The translations under genes and the position numbers were made by a program. A stretch of 44,457 nucleotides of DNA from a virus, in IMG/VR virus record IMGVR_UViG_3300017922_000005, positions 1 to 44,457 of that record; one strand, 5' to 3'. Positions 1-36,034 of the stretch are shown in pieces (positions within the stretch are counted from its first letter, which is position 1; each line of letters starts with the position of its first letter). Below the pieces are notes generated by a model, which saw only the letters and a program-made list of their open reading frames with translations, was not told where the DNA came from and made no database searches.

Positions 1-138
1 CATTTTATGCAGCATTCGTTCTTGAACACAATGTGTATCATCACGTAGATAAACTGTATCTGTATGCCATTCAATTCCCACAACTGTCCACATCCTTTTC
101 TCAATTGTATCCCATGCTCTGAATTTAAGTTCTCTCAA
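1..138 (-). CDS. YopX-family protein, partial (runs off the left edge)
   Basis: The visible N-terminus reads LRELKFRAWDTIEKRMW, the typical opening of YopX-type phage proteins, whose molecular role is not well established. It starts at TTG (138-136), which overlaps the TGA of the upstream gene in a TTGA junction, with GGTGAT just before it. The C-terminal part lies outside the window. A second, complete YopX gene lies about 750 bases upstream in the same operon, so this is one of two diverged copies. Family assignment is by motif only. Confidence 0.8.
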   Translation of the reverse strand, partial: MRELKFRAWDTIEKRMWTVVGIEWHTDTVYLRDDTHCVQERMLHKM

Positions 139-527
139 ATCATCACCCCATAAGTTATATCAAACTCTTTTATATCAATGATTTCTATAAGTCCAGCATC
201 GTGAACACAATGTTGTTTTTCAATCTGCTCTCGAAATATTGATGCAGCCTCATGCATATTTGGGGCAACAATTGTCTTATCGAATTCTTCTGATATTACA
301 TTATACATCTTCAATTTGCGCCCTTTATGAGTAGCATCAGTATCTTTTGTTTTCTCATCTTTCTGCCTCTCAAGATATTTATCATACACATCATTACTCA
401 TACGACATACTTTCACATCCCAGTCCATCGACTAAACCATATACCCATACTCTTTTACAAGATTCTGGATAAAATTATGTATCTTGCTGTCAATTTCTTT
501 TGATTCATTTACTTTAATATTGCTCAT
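135..527 (-). CDS. Unknown protein with an in-frame TAG codon
   Basis: This gene is open from ATG 527 to TGA 135 only if the TAG at 434-432 is read as an amino acid (residue 32 of 130). The 31 codons before the TAG start with a plausible ribosome site (AGTGATTGA before the ATG) four bases behind the preceding gene. The ATG two codons after the TAG has no comparable site. The product is hydrophilic with mixed charge and no motif I recognise. The extended frame ends in a TTGA overlap with the next gene, as elsewhere in this operon. The alternative is two separate peptides of 31 and 97 residues, or a nonsense mutation. Confidence 0.7.
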
Positions 528-2568: not shown

Positions 2569-2717
2569 TTTCTTTTCTCCGGTTCTTCAAATTCAGTCTT
2601 ACATTGCCTACATCTATACTTGGGTTGTTTACGTACCCTTATGCGGAAATCGGCAGACTTACAGTTTGGGCAGGCAAGTCCGGAACTGTAAAGTTTGCCC
2701 TTTCTGAATTTTATCAT
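2565..2717 (-). CDS. Small zinc-ribbon protein
   Basis: This 50-residue gene is locked between neighbours: its ATG overlaps the TGA of the polymerase gene and its own TGA overlaps the next ATG. It carries CPNC at residues 16-19 and CRQC at 36-39, a CxxC-x16-CxxC zinc ribbon, in a basic protein (RIRVRKQPKYRC between the pairs). Such ribbons bind nucleic acid or act as transcription-factor-like adaptors. The link to the polymerase by overlap is suggestive only. Confidence 0.8.
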   Translation of the reverse strand: MIKFRKGKLYSSGLACPNCKSADFRIRVRKQPKYRCRQCKTEFEEPEKRK

Positions 2718-5062
2718 GTTAAGAAATCCGCCAATGATCGCTGTCCTATCAATCCATTAATATCCCAGCCCATGGAGGAATACAAAAATTCCAGCTTTTT
2801 CATTGTAGCATCTCTCATTGCTTTATAATCTACAACTACTCCATCGGGTAGTGATGTATCCTCATCCACGGCAATGTAATTGGCTGGTGGATATTTGGAA
2901 GCTACCTTCTTGACCTTCACATAAAAGGGTTTGGTGCCTTCCTTGAAGTTCGTATTCAGGTTCTCATTTGACCACATGGCTGCCACTGCACGGTAGTAAG
3001 ATTCCGGATAGGCGTGCAAGGGCTTCTTGATTTCTGCCGGAACTCCAATCTCGGTTAATGGATATTGTCCTTTTTCCACTTTTTTTAATTCAGCAGAATA
3101 CTTCATATCCAATTCCCTCTTGGGCTTATAATTCAGAAGGTCAAGGATTAGTTCCTTTTGCAGGTTTCGTGCCAGAGTGGAAGAATCTGAACGAATAGCA
3201 TCAAAACCCTTCACTTCTAGCGCAGAAGGATCATCCTCATCAAAGGTGGTACCGTCAATCCACCAAAGTTTGATGGCGTATCTGGTCTTGCCTGAAAAAA
3301 TGCCGTTGCGTGCAACCTTTTCAAAGTCAATGTTCATCTTTGCATGTTCATATGGTATGTTGTATTGGCGTAGATGGAGAGGGAATTTACTATTCAGGTG
3401 TTCCTTGACTTCATTGCCGACTTCAATCAACTTCTTGAGACTATTGTATTTGGTTACGAAACCCACCGAATCCGTGTGCCCGAATACCCACTGATATCCA
3501 AGTTTGTTGACCTCATGTCCGCAGAAGTCAATTACACCACGGGTAATGTGTGTTACAGCATTGGCAATCCTCACATCATAAAACTTACAATGCTTATCGG
3601 CTACATCGCCATATACCGTGTTAATTGCTACCTTGTAGGCTTCACGGATTGCATTGGCAACCTTCCATTCTTTGGATTTATACTTTTCTTTATCTCGTTT
3701 CTTACCCCACTCGTCTTTCTTTTGAAAGATATCTTCAAGGAACGTCACGTATGCTCCCTTACGCACACGGTGTGGCATGAAGCACGTACCCCCGATATCA
3801 ATACAATCGTCAAGGGACACGCCTTCTGGGAGATTGGAGCCATCTTCATTTACCAATGTTTCTACAGACATATTACCGGACATCATGGAGAAGGGATAGG
3901 CAGAGGTCAAATCCTCAAATATAACATTCTCATGAAGTCCTACAACTGGTGGTCGGGGTTCGGCACCTTTTACCTTGCCATGCTCGGAATCGTGGGATGG
4001 GTATATGAACTGTGGCATTGCCCTACTCATGGCGGTTTCTACCATCTTGCCCGAATACAGGGTGTCTTCCAGATTGCAGCCAAAAATCCTATGGAAGGTA
4101 ACATGAGAACTCAAGATTGAAAGTTCCCTGTCAAGGAGCATCATCTTGTCCACATCATGATAATTATACTCCAATACTTCATCCGGATTCCTTGCCCATG
4201 CACGAGCAAGATATGCTGCATTCAATCCATCATATTTGGCAAGTCCAAGTTCCCTTTCCAGAATATCATTCAGGGAATTTTTAATATATTTGCGCCTCTT
4301 CAGTCTCAAATATCCAGCTCTGTAATCAAAGAGTGCTACTCCTTTAATCTTGGCTTTGGGATTCCCATTAAAGTCCACGTTCACACTTACCGACTTCATT
4401 GGACTTATTGGGCTAATGTCAATATTCAAAGTGTTACACCGTCTGATTATGTAAACAATATCATAACCTAACAGGTTAAACCCTGCAATGACATCCGGAC
4501 CGAATTTAGCAATATACTTTATCCAAGCATTCAACATCTCGGTCTCTGTGGGATACCAGTATTCAATCCTGCCTGCAGTATTGAACTTCTGGGCTTCCTT
4601 GATTGATGAGTGAAAGCAGAACTGCACGACCTTGCTGGAATGATTGAACTGGAAACCGATTATAATTATAGGCTCCGGTGCATCCATCATATACTTATTC
4701 GTGATGGGGGTATTATTGGAAGCTACCTCAATATCCAGTCCACAGACCAGAGGATCAGCTTTTTCTTCAAATCCTTCCTCTACTCTATCAATCCAGTATC
4801 GTGTGGTAAAAGGAGTCTTGGCTTCGTAGTGTCTATCACCACGTAATTTGCCAATGTCCTGTGCCATCTTACATTCGACTTTCTTGACTTTCACGCCATC
4901 CTTGGCAGTATAAACATCTCCCTCTTTGCATCCTTGCGGAGTAGGAACATCTACCGGAAGATAGAAGTAGGGGTGGAAATCCCACACTTCGTAGGACTTG
5001 CCTCCCCACGGAAATACTACAATTCCCGATCTATCGTTCTTGACAACCTGCTCGATCTGCAT
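2714..5062 (-). CDS. Family B DNA polymerase with 3'-5' exonuclease domain
   Basis: The 782-residue product carries the complete motif set. The exonuclease motifs are Exo I GLDIE (Asp110, Glu112), Exo II FNLLGYD (Asp201) and Exo III YNYHD (Tyr299, Asp303). The polymerase motifs are A DLTSAYP (Asp384), B KVAINTVYG (Lys477 to Gly485) and C GHTDS (Asp531). It is the likely replicative polymerase. Motif C has His where most family members have the first Asp of DTD, while the catalytic second Asp is kept. It lies in an operon with the RecA-like ATPase and putative ssDNA-binding protein. GTGAGG precedes the ATG. Confidence 0.97.
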   Translation of the reverse strand: MQIEQVVKNDRSGIVVFPWGGKSYEVWDFHPYFYLPVDVPTPQGCKEGDVYTAKDGVKVKKVECKMAQDIGKLRGDRHYEAKTPFTTRYWIDRVEEGFEEKADPLVCGLDIEVASNNTPITNKYMMDAPEPIIIIGFQFNHSSKVVQFCFHSSIKEAQKFNTAGRIEYWYPTETEMLNAWIKYIAKFGPDVIAGFNLLGYDIVYIIRRCNTLNIDISPISPMKSVSVNVDFNGNPKAKIKGVALFDYRAGYLRLKRRKYIKNSLNDILERELGLAKYDGLNAAYLARAWARNPDEVLEYNYHDVDKMMLLDRELSILSSHVTFHRIFGCNLEDTLYSGKMVETAMSRAMPQFIYPSHDSEHGKVKGAEPRPPVVGLHENVIFEDLTSAYPFSMMSGNMSVETLVNEDGSNLPEGVSLDDCIDIGGTCFMPHRVRKGAYVTFLEDIFQKKDEWGKKRDKEKYKSKEWKVANAIREAYKVAINTVYGDVADKHCKFYDVRIANAVTHITRGVIDFCGHEVNKLGYQWVFGHTDSVGFVTKYNSLKKLIEVGNEVKEHLNSKFPLHLRQYNIPYEHAKMNIDFEKVARNGIFSGKTRYAIKLWWIDGTTFDEDDPSALEVKGFDAIRSDSSTLARNLQKELILDLLNYKPKRELDMKYSAELKKVEKGQYPLTEIGVPAEIKKPLHAYPESYYRAVAAMWSNENLNTNFKEGTKPFYVKVKKVASKYPPANYIAVDEDTSLPDGVVVDYKAMRDATMKKLEFLYSSMGWDINGLIGQRSLADFLT

Positions 5063-12243: not shown

Positions 12244-12535
12244 TGCGCTTTGCCACTAGTTTATAATAACTGTTGTTCCTATCAATGTATTCCTTATTAA
12301 ATGAAATACACCAACCCCTTTCTAAAAAAAGAAAGAAAAAATAAATTAGCATCTTTTTTATATTTTTTCTTTTCTTTTTTGTATTTGGTACTATTGCTAT
12401 TATCTCATTATCTCCTGTTTCTACAATACTGAAACCTTTCTTTTGTAGTTTATCTTTCAAGTCCTCTGTAGTTCTGGTTCCCAAGGACAAGGGTTTCTGG
12501 CACCCTCGTCGTTCGGGCTGAAGGTTTGGGATCAA
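12233..12535 (-). CDS. Unknown protein with TTG start
   Basis: The 100-residue frame starts at TTG 12535, with GGAGG seven bases upstream, and overlaps the TGA of the TAG-containing gene before it (TTGA). The centre (LKDKLQKKGFSIVETGDN) reads as real protein. After a Lys-rich stretch it passes through an A/T-homopolymer tract (IYFFFLFL), which on this strand is T-rich and could also be a terminator, so the C-terminal third is doubtful. A frameshift within the tract is possible. No family is recognised. Confidence 0.45.
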   Translation of the reverse strand: MIPNLQPERRGCQKPLSLGTRTTEDLKDKLQKKGFSIVETGDNEIIAIVPNTKKKRKNIKKMLIYFFFLFLERGWCISFNKEYIDRNNSYYKLVAKRNDL

Positions 12536-12780
12536 TCATCTGCCTCCACGATGTCCACCATAAACATTGTTATTCTACGTGCCTCTTCCAATTTGTCGGT
12601 TTCCCTCTTGAGTTCATTGACCTTCTAACCGATTGCCTTGTCTAGTTCCACGATAAATTCACGGGTGCTGTTTGTCCTCCGTGCTGTCTGTTCAATCAGC
12701 CAAGGCATGTGCTGGGATTGTGCTGTGGCTTCTCCAAGTACGGTATAGACCGATTCAAGATTAATGTTTGCTTTTGCCAT
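12532..12780 (-). CDS. Small helical protein with an in-frame TAG codon
   Basis: The start is ATG 12780, with AGGTGATATC upstream, beginning MAKANINLES. The frame reaches TAG at 12627-12625 after 51 residues and continues in the same frame for 30 more codons (KVNELKRETDKLEEARR...) to TGA. The continuation forms a charged helix that extends the helix before the TAG (FIVELDKAIG). Its end is joined to the next gene by a TTGA overlap, and that gene's GGAGG lies in the continuation. Read with TAG as sense, the protein has 82 residues. The role is unknown. Confidence 0.7.
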
Positions 12781-12784
12781 GATA

Positions 12785-14296
12785 TCACCTGTTGTTGAAT
12801 GCTTCAAGTACCTCGTTCTTTGATCTTATAAACAAATTGTTCCAGTCGTTCCATTGTCTCCCCATCAAGCGCAAGACAAGTCCTTCCCTGCTGGCAAAGA
12901 GTTCATTGTGTTCGGAATACCAGCAGTGAGTATATTCATGGGCAGCCAGCATAAAAATTTCGATTCCGGTGGCTATTTTGCCCTTTGTACTCTCCACGGC
13001 ATTTGGATTGATAAGAAAAACTCTCTTGCTATCCTTCCTGAAGACTTTAGCGTTGCATTCTTTGTCAAAAGTAAATCCAACACCGATTTCTACGTTCTGG
13101 TTGAATTCTTCTTCTATCTTGAGGATTATGTTTGTCCAGTAGTGTAGGATGGTTTGAAGCTTCTTGGAATCTATCTTCATCGGATAGTTCTTGGTGTCTT
13201 CCCTTCTTTCCACCATGAACTCGTATCCCATTGGTCCAATTTCATGCTTGCTTCCTTCCAGCATGTCACTAACCAGCTGTCCAAGTTCCGGAAAGGTGTC
13301 GGATACTTGTTCTTCCACGGCTTTATAGTTAGTTATTCCGCTTGTGGTGTTCTGTGCTGTGATAGCTTCAATAAAGTCCTTCTTATGGTCTGTTACCTCC
13401 GGATGATGAAACTCATTCAGTTTGTCCATCACATTCAGTCCAGCAAAGGTGTCAATTACCATCTGCGGTTTCTTCTCCGTGGCTGATCTGGGATCAACGA
13501 TCATCTCGTTTATCTTTTCATCCAGTTTAGACCTGAATGGATAGACAAGATTATCCCTGTTGGCAGCAAGGAAATTGACGGACTCGCCCTTGAGTTCCAC
13601 ATAAACCGTGGACTCCAAGTTCGGCATCATTCTCCAAAACATAGGAATGCCACGGAGTCTCACGACCATTTTGCTACTCTCAAAGTCCTTGTCCACTATG
13701 AAATCCGCAAGTTCACTGCTCTTCAGAGTACCTTTGACCTTCTCGCATTTGACCTCTTCTCCATCAAGGCAAATTGTTGCCTCTGTGGAAAGGAAAGATA
13801 AAAAGTGTTCAACTTTGTATTTCCAGAAGCCAGCATCATAAATAGAGCCTTCTTCGTACAAATTGATTGATATCTCGGTGCCAATTTTGCATTCAGTCTC
13901 AATGCACCTAATTGGTTCCTTGCCAATCATTTCGTTGTTTATCTCATACAACGTCGTTCCGTCTTGAGAAGATTTAATCGACCATTGACTCCATGCAAAG
14001 AAAAGGATTTCCTTTGCCTTGCCGAATCCGCCAACGGAACCTTCCTTCTTCTGGGAACCACCAAGCACAAGTAACTTGTCACGAATAATGTTTGCGTTCA
14101 TTCCGCAGCCATCATCCACGACAGTTATCGTGTTGGCTTCCTTATCAATATCAATGCTTACCTAACTGGCTCCAGCATCCAGACTGTTCTGAATCGCTTC
14201 ACGAATCCATACCGTTGGTAGATCGTTTGAATAATCTGCTCTGGCATTTTTGCGGAAATAATCAGCACCTATAACAATATCTGCTACTTCTTCCAT
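12785..14296 (-). CDS. GHKL (Hsp90/MutL-type) ATPase fused to an HExxH domain, with an in-frame TAG
   Basis: The gene starts at ATG 14296 behind AAAGGAGGTTTATA, a near-perfect ribosome site, and encodes 503 residues if TAG 14164-14162 (residue 45) is sense. The N-box is REAIQNSLDAGAS with Glu33 and Asn37. Directly after the TAG come VSIDID and the DDGCGM box (about 61-66), then GGFGKA (about 89-94). The C-terminal part holds AAHEYTHCW, an HExxH motif at about 453-457, with SEHNE about 8 residues later, as in zinc metallopeptidases. Without readthrough neither fragment has a whole ATP site. Partner and target are unknown. Confidence 0.85.
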
Positions 14297-15354: not shown

Positions 15355-15405
15355 CCTGACTGATACCAGTCAGGATTCCAGTAAACGGAGGGAGGAATCT
15401 CCCTC
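15355..15405. repeat. Two tandem perfect hairpins
   Basis: CCTGACTG (15355-15362) pairs with CAGTCAGG (15367-15374) over a 4-base loop. GAGGGAG (15388-15394) pairs with CTCCCTC (15399-15405) over a 4-base loop. They lie in a stretch without a confident gene between the Cys-rich gene and the 57-residue gene. Possible roles are an mRNA processing or stability element or an attenuator. There is no T-tract behind them, so they do not look like a bacterial-type terminator. Confidence 0.6.
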
Positions 15406-15592
15406 ACAAATACGATATCGGAATCGTTGAACCGCATCCATAAACATTCTTACTTGCTAACTAATCCTCCATGCATTCCTTACATGAATCGCAATCAACT
15501 CCGATATGCCCTTCAGGTGCCCCACAATCCTTACAAGCGTAGCACTTCCGCACTGCATAACATTGCAATTTATAAGGGCAAGGTTTATGCAA
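15404..15592 (-). CDS. Cys-rich zinc-binding protein, ending at or reading through TAG
   Basis: The gene starts at TTG 15592, with GGAGTGAT five bases upstream. The product has nine cysteines within 40 residues, including KCYACKDCG and DCDSCKECMED, a two-zinc arrangement. TAG at 15463-15461 follows CMED. The frame then runs 18 more codons (including VYGCGSTIP) to TGA. CMED is a natural-looking C-terminus, so here TAG may be a true stop (15461-15592, 43 residues). The extension is short enough to be chance. I give the longer span because TAG is read as sense elsewhere. Confidence 0.55.
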
Positions 15593-15722
15593 CCGAATCA
15601 CTCCTTAACTTTCTTAAGATTGCTGGGAGATCATCCCCATCGGGGAGCTCACGATTGAAGACTTCATCCTCTACGTCATGATCAACTTTCTTGCGCCTGT
15701 GTGGAGACAATCCTTGCCTCAT
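15585..15722 (-). CDS. Unknown small charged protein
   Basis: This 45-residue gene begins MRQGLSPHRRKK and has an acidic centre (DHDVEDEVFNRELPDGDD). Its ATG overlaps the TGA of the upstream gene (ATGA), and its end contains the ribosome site of the Cys-rich gene. No family is recognised. Confidence 0.6.
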   Translation of the reverse strand: MRQGLSPHRRKKVDHDVEDEVFNRELPDGDDLPAILRKLRSDSVA

Positions 15723-21806: not shown

Positions 21807-22370
21807 ATGACTGACGATAAAATTTCTGATGTTACAGATGCTATAAAGGCTCCTAATTGTAGGGTATGTAACCATCCCAGAAGGTCAGATATTGACCAGA
21901 TGCTTATCCTGGGTGTCAGATATAAGGACATAATCAAAAATCTGGGAGCTGAAGGCAGCGAACTGAATACCAAAATTCTGTCCAATCACAAGAACAAACA
22001 TATAAATGTAGATCAGGTTCCGGATGTAATACCAAGTACCGTACAGGCTGGACTGGTGGATGCCCATCAAAGGGCGTTTGAATTACAATTTGAAAACCAA
22101 CGTCTGCGTTCCGAAAATATGCTTGCTGACCAGAAAATGAGAATGACACAGCAGGCTGCAGTTTGTTTAACTATTATAGACCAGTTGCCACAGGTACTTG
22201 AAACAGCAACAGTAAAAGATGTTCTGAATGCGACCAAAATGCTCTCCGAGATATGTGGGGATAGAGTGGAAAAGCACGAACATCAGATTGATGTAGTTGC
22301 TGACATGAACATGGATGAAGATACTCTCAAAGCAATTGGAGATATTTTAGCCAGTGGCAAGAAGAAGTGA
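21807..22370 (+). CDS. Putative terminase small subunit
   Basis: The 187-residue product starts with a Cys/Arg-rich HTH-like part (NCRVCNHPRRSDIDQML, then VRYKDIIKNLGAEGS). It continues with a long helical region (AFELQFENQRLRSENML) suited to oligomerisation. It ends in a TGA overlapping the terminase large-subunit region. Position and architecture fit the DNA-recognition subunit that delivers viral DNA to the motor. Confidence 0.75.
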   Translation: MTDDKISDVTDAIKAPNCRVCNHPRRSDIDQMLILGVRYKDIIKNLGAEGSELNTKILSNHKNKHINVDQVPDVIPSTVQAGLVDAHQRAFELQFENQRLRSENMLADQKMRMTQQAAVCLTIIDQLPQVLETATVKDVLNATKMLSEICGDRVEKHEHQIDVVADMNMDEDTLKAIGDILASGKKK

Positions 22371-22378
22371 GGCACATC

Positions 22379-23908
22379 ATGGAAATGAATGATGCCACCG
22401 AAATACTCCTGAAGACCAGTGAAGGTAGAAGAGCCCTTGCCAAAAATTCTATTTCTTTTTTCTTGAGTTATTATCTGGGATTGGATATTGATAAGCATCA
22501 TGAAGAATGGATATCCAGAATATACATTAAGAGATTGCATTACGAAGCCCCCCGTGACCATGGAAAATCTACAATCTTTTCTTTTGGATATCCATTGTGG
22601 TTACTTTATCATGTACCAAATGTAAGAACACTGGTCGTATCCCGTACAGGAGGTTCTTCCGGTGTTTCTACAAAGGTTAGGGAAGCCATAATTGAGGAGA
22701 TGAAGACCAATAATCGCCTTCTAGAAGATTATGGTAAGATAATTACCAAAGAGAAGGGAGGAAATATATGGGTTAAACGTACCAAACGAGGTATAAAAGA
22801 CCCCTCACTAGAGTCTGTGGGTGTGGGTGGTTCAATTACTGGTGGTCACTACGATTTTATTCTGGTGGATGACTTGATTGATCCCAGCAACTCCCGAACC
22901 CAGACCATGAGGGATTACGTAGCTGACTGGTTTAATGGTACCCTGATGGAACTTCTGGAACCGGATTCCCAGATCATTGTGGTTGGTACCCGTAAACACT
23001 GGGATGATTTATATAAATATATACTGGACAACAAATTGTGGAACAGTTATATAGATAAAGCCATAATCAGATATCCAGATCATTATGAAATTATTGCGCC
23101 CGATGAAGAAACATATGAAGATATGACATTTGAGGAAGCCGACAGGCGTGGCGGAGAACTCAAGATCATTAATGATGTCAAGGTATATGTTGAAGGAGAC
23201 TATGAAGTCCTCTGGAAAGAAAAATGGGATATATTCCAGTTATTGTATAATAAATACGATATTGGCTCCATTCTTTTTAACAGGGAAAAACAAAATGATC
23301 CATCCGGCATGCAAGGTAAGATTCTGAATGTAGAATGGTTACAATTTTATGAAAAGAAAGACTTGCCCAATGATTTAATTGTTTATCAGGGAGTGGACTT
23401 GGCAATCTCTGAAAAGGAAACTTCCGATTATATGTCAATCTGTACGGTAGGATACTCCCCATCAAAACAGATCGTCTATGTTCTGGAGTTCTGGAGAGGA
23501 CATCGCACATTCCCTGAACAAATCGGGATGATTGAACGATTTGGTAATAAATGGGACCCCATACGGATAACTATCGAATCTAACGCATACCAGAATGCAA
23601 TGATACAGTACCACCACGCTGTCAATATGTTACCCGTTGTGGGTTCCCCAACTACAAAGGATAAAACAACAAGGATGCTTGCCATTTCTCCACAGATCGA
23701 GAATGGTAAAATTCTATTTAACAGAGATATTCCTTATTATGAAAATTTTGAAGAGGAATTTGTACAATTCCCATATGGAGCGCATGATGATACTTTGGAC
23801 AGTCTGGAAATTTGTGTAAGACCTATTTTTCAGGTTGGTCAGATACATATTGGTGATTGGTCAACTGGTAAGGATGTTGCAGGAGAAAAAGGATGGTTTT
23901 CAATATAA
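22379..23908 (+). CDS. Terminase large subunit (ATPase and nuclease)
   Basis: About 509 residues. Walker A is APRDHGKST (about 57-65), Walker B is FILVDDLID (about 160-168) and the coupling motif is VVGTRKHWDD (about 201-210). The C-terminal nuclease shows QGVDLA (Asp340), ITIESN (Glu400) and HDDTLDSLE (Asp470/471). It cuts and pumps DNA into the procapsid. I place the start at ATG 22379, with GAGG eight bases upstream; an in-frame GTG at 22367 overlaps the preceding stop and is the alternative. Confidence 0.95.
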   Translation: MEMNDATEILLKTSEGRRALAKNSISFFLSYYLGLDIDKHHEEWISRIYIKRLHYEAPRDHGKSTIFSFGYPLWLLYHVPNVRTLVVSRTGGSSGVSTKVREAIIEEMKTNNRLLEDYGKIITKEKGGNIWVKRTKRGIKDPSLESVGVGGSITGGHYDFILVDDLIDPSNSRTQTMRDYVADWFNGTLMELLEPDSQIIVVGTRKHWDDLYKYILDNKLWNSYIDKAIIRYPDHYEIIAPDEETYEDMTFEEADRRGGELKIINDVKVYVEGDYEVLWKEKWDIFQLLYNKYDIGSILFNREKQNDPSGMQGKILNVEWLQFYEKKDLPNDLIVYQGVDLAISEKETSDYMSICTVGYSPSKQIVYVLEFWRGHRTFPEQIGMIERFGNKWDPIRITIESNAYQNAMIQYHHAVNMLPVVGSPTTKDKTTRMLAISPQIENGKILFNRDIPYYENFEEEFVQFPYGAHDDTLDSLEICVRPIFQVGQIHIGDWSTGKDVAGEKGWFSI

Positions 23909-31788: not shown

Positions 31789-32934
31789 ATGACGTACAGA
31801 AACTCAATACAGACAATTGGAGACCTTGAATCCCTCTACTATGGAGACCTCTTCTCCAAGCAGTACATGCAGAAAAGCGATGCGCCAATGCTTACTTCCA
31901 CCTCTGGTATTTACAACCAGATTTATGGTGCAAAGGTTTGGGTAAACCTGAATCTTGAAGCCAATGCATTTGGTATGTTGAACAAGACTCCTTGGAAACA
32001 GTCCGGTTGGAGGCTTATCACAACCCGTGCTCTCGGAACTTCTGGAAGCGGTGGAGTTGCTGAAAATGCTGCACTTCCAGATACCACAAAACCCACCTTC
32101 AAAGAGGTCGCTACCAAACCCAAGACCGTTGCACACACCTTCGACAGTTCCGAAGTCATGCAGTACATGGGTACAGTGGACGATTCCCTTGGAGATGTTA
32201 TGGGAGTTCTGCGTGAACACATGGCAAAGGAACATGCAGAACAGATCAACAAGATGCTCCTGAAAGATGCTTCTGCTGAAGCCGCAGCAGCCAGTGGAGA
32301 CCGTGCTGCAGCCGACATGTACAATATCGAATCCCTTGACCGTATAGTGTCCAGTGATGCAGAAGAAGACGCATTTGGTGGAACCTATAATGGTTGGTTC
32401 GATGTATTCAGCCTTGATAGGGATTCCACAACTGACTACGATGCACAGGTCAGCCACAACTCTGGTACAGACCGTTCCTTGTCCTTGTCCCTCATTGATA
32501 GTATGTTCACCAACCTGTGGACTGCTGGTGGAAATCCAAAGGTCATTATGACCGGATATGACTCCCTCATGGCAACCCAGCAACTCTTGCAGGCACAGCA
32601 GAGATTCATGGACACCAAGAGAGTAACACCTTCCGTAAACGGTATTAAAGGTGTAGATGGTGTGGATGCAGGATTCGTTGTTGCAACATACAATGGTGTT
32701 CCATTCATACCATCCAAAGACATGTGTCAGGATACCCTTTCAAGGATGTTCTTCCTCGATACCGACTATCTGGAAATGAGAATTGCAAAACCAACCCAGT
32801 ATTTCGAGTCCGGTATCCTTTCTGGAAACCCCTTCGGAATTAACCGTCTTGGTCAGGAAGGACTTTACCGTACAATGGGTGAAGCAACCTGCCAGTGGTT
32901 TGGCGTACAGGGTAAGATCAGGGATTTGCAGTAA
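31789..32934 (+). CDS. Major capsid protein (HK97-fold type)
   Basis: 381 residues, following protease-scaffold as usual. Features include an N-terminal arm (IQTIGDLESLYYGDLFSK), a Gly/Ser/Ala-rich region (RALGTSGSGGVAENAAL), a long spine-helix candidate (MGVLREHMAKEHAEQINKML), and KVIMTGYDSLMATQQLL near the middle. The codon usage is the most even and GC-rich of the late genes, as expected for a highly expressed protein. GGAGGAGAATAAAC precedes the ATG. Confidence 0.9.
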   Translation: MTYRNSIQTIGDLESLYYGDLFSKQYMQKSDAPMLTSTSGIYNQIYGAKVWVNLNLEANAFGMLNKTPWKQSGWRLITTRALGTSGSGGVAENAALPDTTKPTFKEVATKPKTVAHTFDSSEVMQYMGTVDDSLGDVMGVLREHMAKEHAEQINKMLLKDASAEAAAASGDRAAADMYNIESLDRIVSSDAEEDAFGGTYNGWFDVFSLDRDSTTDYDAQVSHNSGTDRSLSLSLIDSMFTNLWTAGGNPKVIMTGYDSLMATQQLLQAQQRFMDTKRVTPSVNGIKGVDGVDAGFVVATYNGVPFIPSKDMCQDTLSRMFFLDTDYLEMRIAKPTQYFESGILSGNPFGINRLGQEGLYRTMGEATCQWFGVQGKIRDLQ

Positions 32935-34200: not shown

Positions 34201-34580
34201 TGACACTTGATATAATAAAACCTGTACCAAAAACTGAACAACCAGACATTTCTGGAATTGATTTAGGTGTAATCATAGCAGAAGGTGTAAATTCTGGTGA
34301 TATTGAAGATTTGCACTCATGTGTAGAATTTGTAAACACCAAAATTGACCCTGATATTGGTGGTAATGAAGTTCAGGGAATATTCAAAAAAGTTGTAAAA
34401 GAAGCCAAAGAGATGAGTAGTAAAGCCGATAGTATGGCAAGAAATGGTGCTACTGTTACTGAAATGGCTGCTGAAATCACTGGTGACTATTTCACATTTG
34501 ACGACATCAAACAAATGAAAATCGAAGTGTATGGAACTGTAACTGAATGGAAAAATGCAATGACAACAGATGAGGTATGA
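34200..34580 (+). CDS. Unknown helical structural-module protein
   Basis: 126 residues, acidic and helical (FKKVVKEAKEMSSKADS). It is joined to the upstream gene by TAATG and followed six bases later by the first LamG gene. It may link the surface proteins to the head. That is inference. Confidence 0.6.
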   Translation: MTLDIIKPVPKTEQPDISGIDLGVIIAEGVNSGDIEDLHSCVEFVNTKIDPDIGGNEVQGIFKKVVKEAKEMSSKADSMARNGATVTEMAAEITGDYFTFDDIKQMKIEVYGTVTEWKNAMTTDEV

Positions 34581-34586
34581 TATTCC

Positions 34587-35273
34587 ATGCCTCGTACTGT
34601 TTTACCTGTTGAAAATTGTGTTTTCAGATTAGACTCCAAGTATGGGTTTAATCAGCAGTTCCCGATGACATTCAATGATGTTGAATTATCAGAAGATGGG
34701 TTTGAATTTGATGGCATAAATAGTTGGATTTCTTTTCCTAGTATCCCTACACGAATGTGGGATATGACTATCCATTTAAGGATGATTTGGAATGGAAATG
34801 GTAATGACAACGATAGTCTCCAACAAATAATAGGGAATAATGATAGGTACAATGAATGGATAGCAATACAGGAGATTGATAACGGTTATACATATATGGA
34901 AGATGGTATGAATTCAAATGCATACCAGTTAGATACTTATACACTTCGGATAGATGTGGGTGTTATTTATGATATATTCATAAGTTTAGGAGAAAATAAT
35001 TATAAAGTACTTCTAAATGGTGAATTTGTAAGGGAAACTGAAAAAGCAGATAGATATAATTTTAATATTAATGCAATTGGTGGAAGGCCAGATGATAGAC
35101 GTTTTGAAGGAATTATATCACTTGTAGAAATATATTATCGTGCATATACCGTGCAAGAAATGAAAGACAGATACAACCAGAGTACATTCTTATTCCTGAA
35201 TAATACACCAACACCCACCCAGCAGGCATATCTTGACTGGCAGAATAGCAGAATAATTGGGAGGTCACGATAA
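34587..35273 (+). CDS. LamG/concanavalin-like surface protein, copy 1
   Basis: 228 residues with a jelly-roll-like strand pattern: GFEFDGINSWISFP at the start, GNNDRYNEWIAIQ in the middle, YKVLLNGEFV, and EIYYRAYTVQEMKDRYNQ at the end, the usual LamG closing strand and helix. LamG domains bind sugars or host-surface ligands. It is the first of three such genes in a row. Confidence 0.75.
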   Translation: MPRTVLPVENCVFRLDSKYGFNQQFPMTFNDVELSEDGFEFDGINSWISFPSIPTRMWDMTIHLRMIWNGNGNDNDSLQQIIGNNDRYNEWIAIQEIDNGYTYMEDGMNSNAYQLDTYTLRIDVGVIYDIFISLGENNYKVLLNGEFVRETEKADRYNFNINAIGGRPDDRRFEGIISLVEIYYRAYTVQEMKDRYNQSTFLFLNNTPTPTQQAYLDWQNSRIIGRSR

Positions 35274-36034
35274 TGACACGGACACTTGAAGAATTGAGAG
35301 AATATTTGGTTGGAGAATGGAAATTTGATAATAACTTCCTTGATACATCTGGAAATGGTAACCATGGTACTCCTACTGATATTGAATGGAAACCTACAAG
35401 TAGAGGGCTGAAACCACATATTAAAATAGGAAATACTGTGTCTATGAATGAAATTGTGTTATCTCCTAATGATTCCACAATTTCACTTTGGGTTGCCAAT
35501 TTTAAAAAAATTGATAGTAATTATAATGACCATCATTATATTTTATCTAAAAATGATAGATATAGAAATTATATTGCAATCAGTTCAACTGGAAGTATTG
35601 CAATTGAATCTGATGTTAATGGGGATATATTTGGAATTGCAACTACAGGAACATTTCCATTTGACTTCAGGCCACATCAAATAACTGTTACTGCATCAAA
35701 TGCTGTAACCCAAATTTATTTGGATGGGATACCTGTTAATATGACTGGTATTAATGCAGATGCAGAAGTTAAATTGACAAACATTGGTTGTATCACGGAA
35801 CAAAATGATACGTCTCCTGATTGTACAGTATGTGGCATATTGCACTATTCCACTGCCCTAACATCAGATGAAGTCCTCAACCTATACAACTCCACCAAAA
35901 ACGCTGTCGGTGTACGACCTGCCGAAAGAAGTTTTACTCACAGACTGCAACCTGACGTAGATGACAACACCGTATTTGCTACTGACATGAGTACCAAGAA
36001 TAGCGATGGTACGCTCATGGATTTAAGTTGGTGA
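35273..36034 (+). CDS. LamG/concanavalin-like surface protein, copy 2
   Basis: 253 residues. LamG hallmarks are LVGEWKFDNNFLDTSGNGNH at the start, SKNDRYRNYIAIS in the middle (matching copy 1), IYLDGIPVN, and YSTALTSDEVLNLYN near residue 200. A second opening (VFATDMSTKNSDGTLMDLSW) sits at the C-terminus and reads like the first strand of another LamG domain, which the next gene continues (MGNNHATVYGAA). It is joined to copy 1 by TAATG. Confidence 0.78.
   Translation: MTRTLEELREYLVGEWKFDNNFLDTSGNGNHGTPTDIEWKPTSRGLKPHIKIGNTVSMNEIVLSPNDSTISLWVANFKKIDSNYNDHHYILSKNDRYRNYIAISSTGSIAIESDVNGDIFGIATTGTFPFDFRPHQITVTASNAVTQIYLDGIPVNMTGINADAEVKLTNIGCITEQNDTSPDCTVCGILHYSTALTSDEVLNLYNSTKNAVGVRPAERSFTHRLQPDVDDNTVFATDMSTKNSDGTLMDLSW

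Follow-up and report, generated by a model that had tools for sequence, protein, structure and literature searches.

A gene of a tailed archaeal virus interrupted by an in-frame TAG codon that is probably read as host-supplied pyrrolysine

The sequence analyzed here was IMGVR_UViG_3300017922_000005, positions 1–44,457 (44,457 nt, one strand), and that whole stretch is called the window below. At its left end, on the minus strand, a small protein is encoded between an upstream neighbor and a YopX gene. This gene (gene 1, 135–527), delimited by ORF, SD and spacing analysis, has 130 codons and runs from an ATG at 527–525 through 31 codons to a TAG at 434–432 (codon 32), a TCG, an ATG at 428 that opens 97 codons, and a TGA at 137–135. 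There is no TAA or TGA within the frame 527–135, and the two segments are in phase, as the earlier note had stated; an in-frame TAG inside an otherwise open gene is the arrangement looked for in a pyrrolysine-decoded gene. Gene 1 starts 4 bases downstream of the end of its upstream neighbor, and its own end forms a TTGA overlap with the YopX gene, whose start (TTG 138) is preceded by GGGGTGATGAT. The YopX gene (1–138, minus strand) is truncated by the window edge; its full-length copy in L003, which with L002 is one of two records from other metagenomes ~98% identical to the window, matches Pfam YopX with an E value of 1e-18, and both the overlap and the identity of this downstream gene agree with what had been described before. 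The TAG of gene 1 is identical in L002 and L003, which makes a sequencing error unlikely; as the records that share it are near-identical, its conservation says little about selection. When the window is compared with a relative, codons of gene 1 downstream of the TAG differ nonsynonymously in 9 cases and synonymously in 4, so that purifying selection is not apparent there. The single-sequence fold model of the product was poor (pLDDT 49).

Examination of start signals confirmed that the TAG divides a start segment with an SD match (ATG 527, with GTGAT, a 5-base match to the SD core, lying 3 bases upstream) from a frame whose ATG at 428 has only GGT. A 3-base SD match is the commonest value among all ATGs of the window (47%), and at 50 of the 58 gene starts in our gene models (the sets of 58 and 68 models, and the spacing analysis, were picked by eye) the match has at least 4 bases. 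The codon score of the gene 1 leader exceeded that of 112 of 116 off-frame controls and fell inside the span of scores of true gene starts, with 24 of the 58 below it. These data bear on the alternative that the TAG is a normal stop, such that a short peptide of 31 residues would terminate at 432 and a distinct gene for 97 residues would begin at ATG 428. An ATG is indeed present two codons past the TAG, and the join is unproven by any homologue; however, the SD match of that ATG is at background level, the leader scores above nearly all off-frame controls, TAG must be read in another gene of this virus, and a stop here would be a rare TAG end in a virus with none among its long ORFs (both described below). 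A normal stop at this site is thus unlikely in our view.

TAG-joined frames also occur elsewhere in the window, where the earlier note had counted the TAG of gene 1 as the third; they lie at 14164–14162, 12627–12625 and possibly 15463–15461, and these three TAGs are kept in two relatives (L005 and L006). Gene 2 (12785–14296, minus strand) encodes a GHKL-type ATPase protein; its ATG at 14296 lies behind AGGAGGT, and its TAG (14162–14164) is codon 45, within the domain. The site reads REAIQNSLDAGAS-TAG-VSIDID...TVVDDGCGM, in which we take the motif before the TAG to be the N-box and that after it to be the G1 box. The read-through product matches Pfam HATPase_c_3 (E 9.5e-10) over residues 31–117, a stretch that spans the TAG (residue 45); searched alone, the segment downstream of it gave zero Pfam matches. 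Matches to gene 2, reported without internal stops, were found in 51 of 111 Methanosarcinaceae genomes, and NCBIfam MutL matches together with sequence suggest that these cellular homologues are MutL. In a tblastn comparison of gene 2 with 15 cellular homologue loci, 14 aligned, all 14 ungapped at the TAG site, and the residues opposite the TAG, all from sense codons, were D in 7, E in 6 and Q in 1. This means that the TAG must be read in gene 2, as its cellular homologues run ungapped across the site and the domain needs both sides of it. Downstream of the TAG, 11 synonymous and 3 nonsynonymous codon changes separate gene 2 from a relative. Near its C-terminus, the gene 2 product also contains HEYTH, which fits the HExxH pattern, in addition to the N-terminal GHKL ATPase domain.

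Gene 3 (12532–12780, minus strand), defined by SD and spacing, has 82 codons, of which the TAG at 12627–12625, found in the ORF list and kept in relatives, is codon 52. Its start, ATG 12780, has AGGTGAT upstream. Reading the TAG adds 30 codons up to a TGA overlapping the start of the following gene (TTG 12535) by 4 bases, and would in this way restore tight gene packing. A possible fourth TAG-containing ORF is cysteine-rich and lies at 15404–15604 on the minus strand; its TAG (15463–15461) could alternatively be its plain end.

The use of TAG as a terminator in this virus was also considered. By a mechanical longest-ORF rule, none of the 46 ORFs of at least 100 aa in the window ends in TAG, and the same rule gave zero TAG ends in the near-identical loci L003, L006, L008, L011 and L017–L021. 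More distant capsid-related loci of at least 4 kb had at least one TAG stop in 43 of 43 cases, several of these loci being near-duplicates of one another. Among 68 gene models, the terminators were TGA in 36, TAA in 30 and TAG in 2, and both of the latter are read-through candidates that continue in frame to a TGA. In all, the in-frame TAGs number three or four, to be set beside 12280 codons for the 58 other gene models. The chance of finding no TAG among 46 ends is, by simple arithmetic, ~2 in a million at a TAG rate of 25% and ~0.12 at a rate of 4.5%. TAG stops are reported at ~4–5% in Methanosarcina, 1.6% in Ca. M. alvus and 20–30% in pyrrolysine bacteria (PMC4153887). At ~0.12 for a 4.5% rate, the count of 0 in 46 fits a pyrrolysine host and is insufficient by itself to prove full reassignment.

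The 68 gene models were also scanned for in-frame leaders that begin at an SD-bearing start of their own and are separated from the gene by a single stop. This returned TAG twice, TGA once and TAA zero times, which is more than chance would give for TAG; the earlier note had argued that a third, unrelated case made three chance mutations less likely. The scan is relevant to the alternative that genes 1, 2 and 3 are decayed and carry nonsense mutations. Since the records sharing each TAG are near-identical, one event per TAG would suffice, and the changes in gene 1 after its TAG, which lack a signal of purifying selection, would be compatible with decay. Against this, no gene in the scan was broken by TAA, the sole TGA case has a 6-base SD at its own start, change in gene 2 after its TAG is purifying-like, and mutation leaves the absence of TAG stops unexplained. 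Decay of these genes is highly improbable.

Homologue searches with gene 1 itself returned little. In viral contigs no homologues were found beyond two near-identical loci, and against phage records there were zero matches at E values up to 10. The read-through product had weak matches to PHROG (E 0.02 or worse). One match in the 111 Methanosarcinaceae genomes, to part of a frame of 623 residues with 27% identity (E 0.003), was discounted. The earlier note had looked to homologues with a single uninterrupted frame for support, and to homologues beginning at the ATG after the TAG for refutation; none carrying a sense codon in place of the TAG was found, so that this support did not materialize, and none starting at the post-TAG ATG was found either. 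As gene 1 is without an informative homologue, its read-through rests on context, and from the pattern across the virus we consider that read-through likely. A single gene across the TAG, as first proposed, is the best reading of gene 1, given the 0 of 46 TAG ends, the ATPase domain split by a TAG in gene 2 and the packing of gene 3.

Profile matches identified a major capsid protein of archaeal-virus type (31789–32934, plus strand), a terminase large subunit (22367–23908, plus strand) and a family B DNA polymerase (2714–5062, minus strand), which on sequence grounds indicate a tailed virus (Caudoviricetes). An HK97-type capsid, terminase, portal and protease are all present, with archaeal-virus kin, as in archaeal tailed viruses; for the portal, the Pfam match itself is weak (E 7e-4). 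All 9 phage records that matched the capsid protein are archaeal viruses. Haloarchaeal viruses were top among the matches listed for the polymerase, which many bacterial phages match too. The GC content of the window is 41%. The two ends of a 56.5 kb relative match overlapping stretches of the window, which suggests that this relative is a complete version of it in circularly permuted form. In the tail region, 34715–35866 is variable: the near-identical records match it over just 147 bases, at 76%, and match its flanks closely. L003 has ~11 kb that are absent from the window, within which an anaerobic ribonucleotide reductase (NrdD) is encoded at L003:15460–17412. A thymidylate kinase is at L003:13851–14423, and an adenylosuccinate synthetase at L003:14423–15475 scored 226 bits with PurZ (cut-off 300) and 242.5 bits with PurA (cut-off 368), both below cut-off; if it is PurZ, this would be a hint of modified DNA bases.

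Parts for decoding TAG were sought in the virus. ARAGORN found no tRNA in the virus records, and so no CUA suppressor tRNA; in a control it recovered tRNA-Pyl in 6 of 17 cellular PylS-motif loci. There were zero RNA family matches to Rfam in six sources, and zero matches of a PylS model to four virus records. These results bear on the alternative that TAG specifies another amino acid, for example glutamine as in code 15 phages, via a suppressor tRNA of virus or host. TAG-recoding phages do exist (PMC9523058), and the homologues of gene 2 have D, E or Q at the site. However, neither ARAGORN nor Rfam revealed a suppressor tRNA in the virus records, TAG is rare in the genes of this virus, and the virus is of an archaeal type, sense TAG in archaea being described as pyrrolysine (PMC8211752). 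Another amino acid is distinctly unlikely. Pyrrolysine is instead the most likely residue at the TAGs of this virus. We hypothesize that gene 1 is one gene for a 130-residue product in which codon 32, TAG, is translated, and that the tRNA-Pyl (CUA anticodon) of a host archaeon would read TAG as pyrrolysine in genes 1, 2 and 3. The virus would bring no decoding parts and would rely on the PylS and tRNA-Pyl of its host, terminating its own genes with TGA or TAA. That pyrrolysine is supplied by the host at the TAG of gene 1, and at those of genes 2 and 3, is probable.

The host is likely a methanogen of the Methanosarcinaceae, and perhaps a Methanohalophilus. Of 237 genomes of the class, one yielded a capsid homologue, on contig L178 in the bin Methanolobus sp. 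Soudan_27, which also contains a PylS-motif locus. Positions 1–20000 of L178 are virus-like and match the terminase, portal, protease and capsid of the window plus two later genes, in identical order. L178 may be wrongly binned. One of its 25 ORFs appears to end in TAG, so termination at some TAGs may persist in its host. A capsid profile run against genome contigs gave zero relatives, the Methanolobus-bin one coming from the separate genome search. The capsid profile and a DNA search applied to the order of a Methanomassiliicoccaceae genome gave 0 of 147, an empty answer that is uninformative there. One record near-identical to the window comes from metagenome 3300006807, which a study on fractured shale lists (PMC5497025). 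Methanohalophilus is reported as dominant in the later fluids of one shale well (PMC6920513), and is described as having ~42% GC and a tRNA for pyrrolysine (PMC6491703).

Short DNA matches to the virus occurred in 14 of the 111 Methanosarcinaceae genomes at E values up to 0.01, mostly near 12350; as just 2 or 6 candidates were scored per genome, spacers may be missed in these searches. Four other short matches, including one at 446–472 inside gene 1, were considered as spacers, had no visible repeat array and were treated as chance. The best-matching of 281 unique Methanohalophilus spacers agreed at 27 of 35 bases, and a reversed-sequence control reached 25 of 35. This spacer aligns at 34353–34387, where 20 of its first 21 bases match and several of the differences are in-frame synonymous changes. 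Its target may be a related virus, and as a link to a host it is a weak lead. No convincing spacer link to any host emerged from the short matches in Methanosarcinaceae, the search of 147 genomes or the Methanohalophilus spacers.

Pyrrolysine TAG genes of methanogens include the methylamine methyltransferases, and 16 further genes were predicted in Ca. Methanomethylophilus alvus (PMC4153887). As in those organisms, in-frame TAGs are found here in otherwise ordinary genes and there are few or no TAG stops; unlike them, the genes are those of a tailed virus, decoding parts of its own were not found, and pyrrolysine is what we infer. Smacoviruses assigned to Methanomassiliicoccales have TAG stops in 4.25% of coding sequences, which was interpreted as adaptation to a pyrrolysine host (PMC6336856). 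The window likewise comes from an archaeal virus that avoids TAG stops, but in smacoviruses, which have small single-stranded DNA, it is stop avoidance that is reported (PMC6336856), whereas here TAG is inside viral genes. TAG is also a sense codon in the genes of code 15 crAss-like phages, as glutamine (PMC9523058). The virus studied here resembles them in that respect and differs in that TAG is rare, a suppressor tRNA was not found and the virus is of archaeal type. In code 15 phages TAG is frequent inside genes, and some of them may lack a suppressor tRNA. The capsid protein family is shared with the haloarchaeal viruses HVTV-1 and HCTV-1 and with the Methanofastidiosa virus vir519, and the window polymerase is related to those of haloarchaeal viruses; capsid identity to these three viruses is 28–33%, however, and their loci contain TAG stops. 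In the literature searched, by title and abstract opening, there was no prior description of TAG inside the genes of a tailed archaeal virus. As far as these searches show, in-frame TAG in such a virus's own genes is new and extends the TAG-stop avoidance of smacoviruses.

Most known cases of pyrrolysine are in methylamine methyltransferases, with some in other cellular genes. A 2025 report is said to describe an archaeal code in which all TAG codons are pyrrolysine. A broader reading of our data, that this is a tailed virus of a methylotrophic methanogen using a 21-amino-acid code throughout, with every genic TAG read as pyrrolysine and one of them inside an ATPase domain, is to us an evenly balanced proposition. 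Standard annotation truncates genes of this kind, and in gene 2 the ATPase domain goes undetected if its TAG is taken as a stop. The combination of TAG-stop avoidance with in-frame TAG could aid host assignment for uncultured viruses. If our interpretation is true, the expansion of the archaeal code would be open to mobile elements, and the virus may be tied to pyrrolysine hosts. On the broader reading, its full-length proteins, and hence infection, would depend on the pyrrolysine supply and methylamine metabolism of the host.
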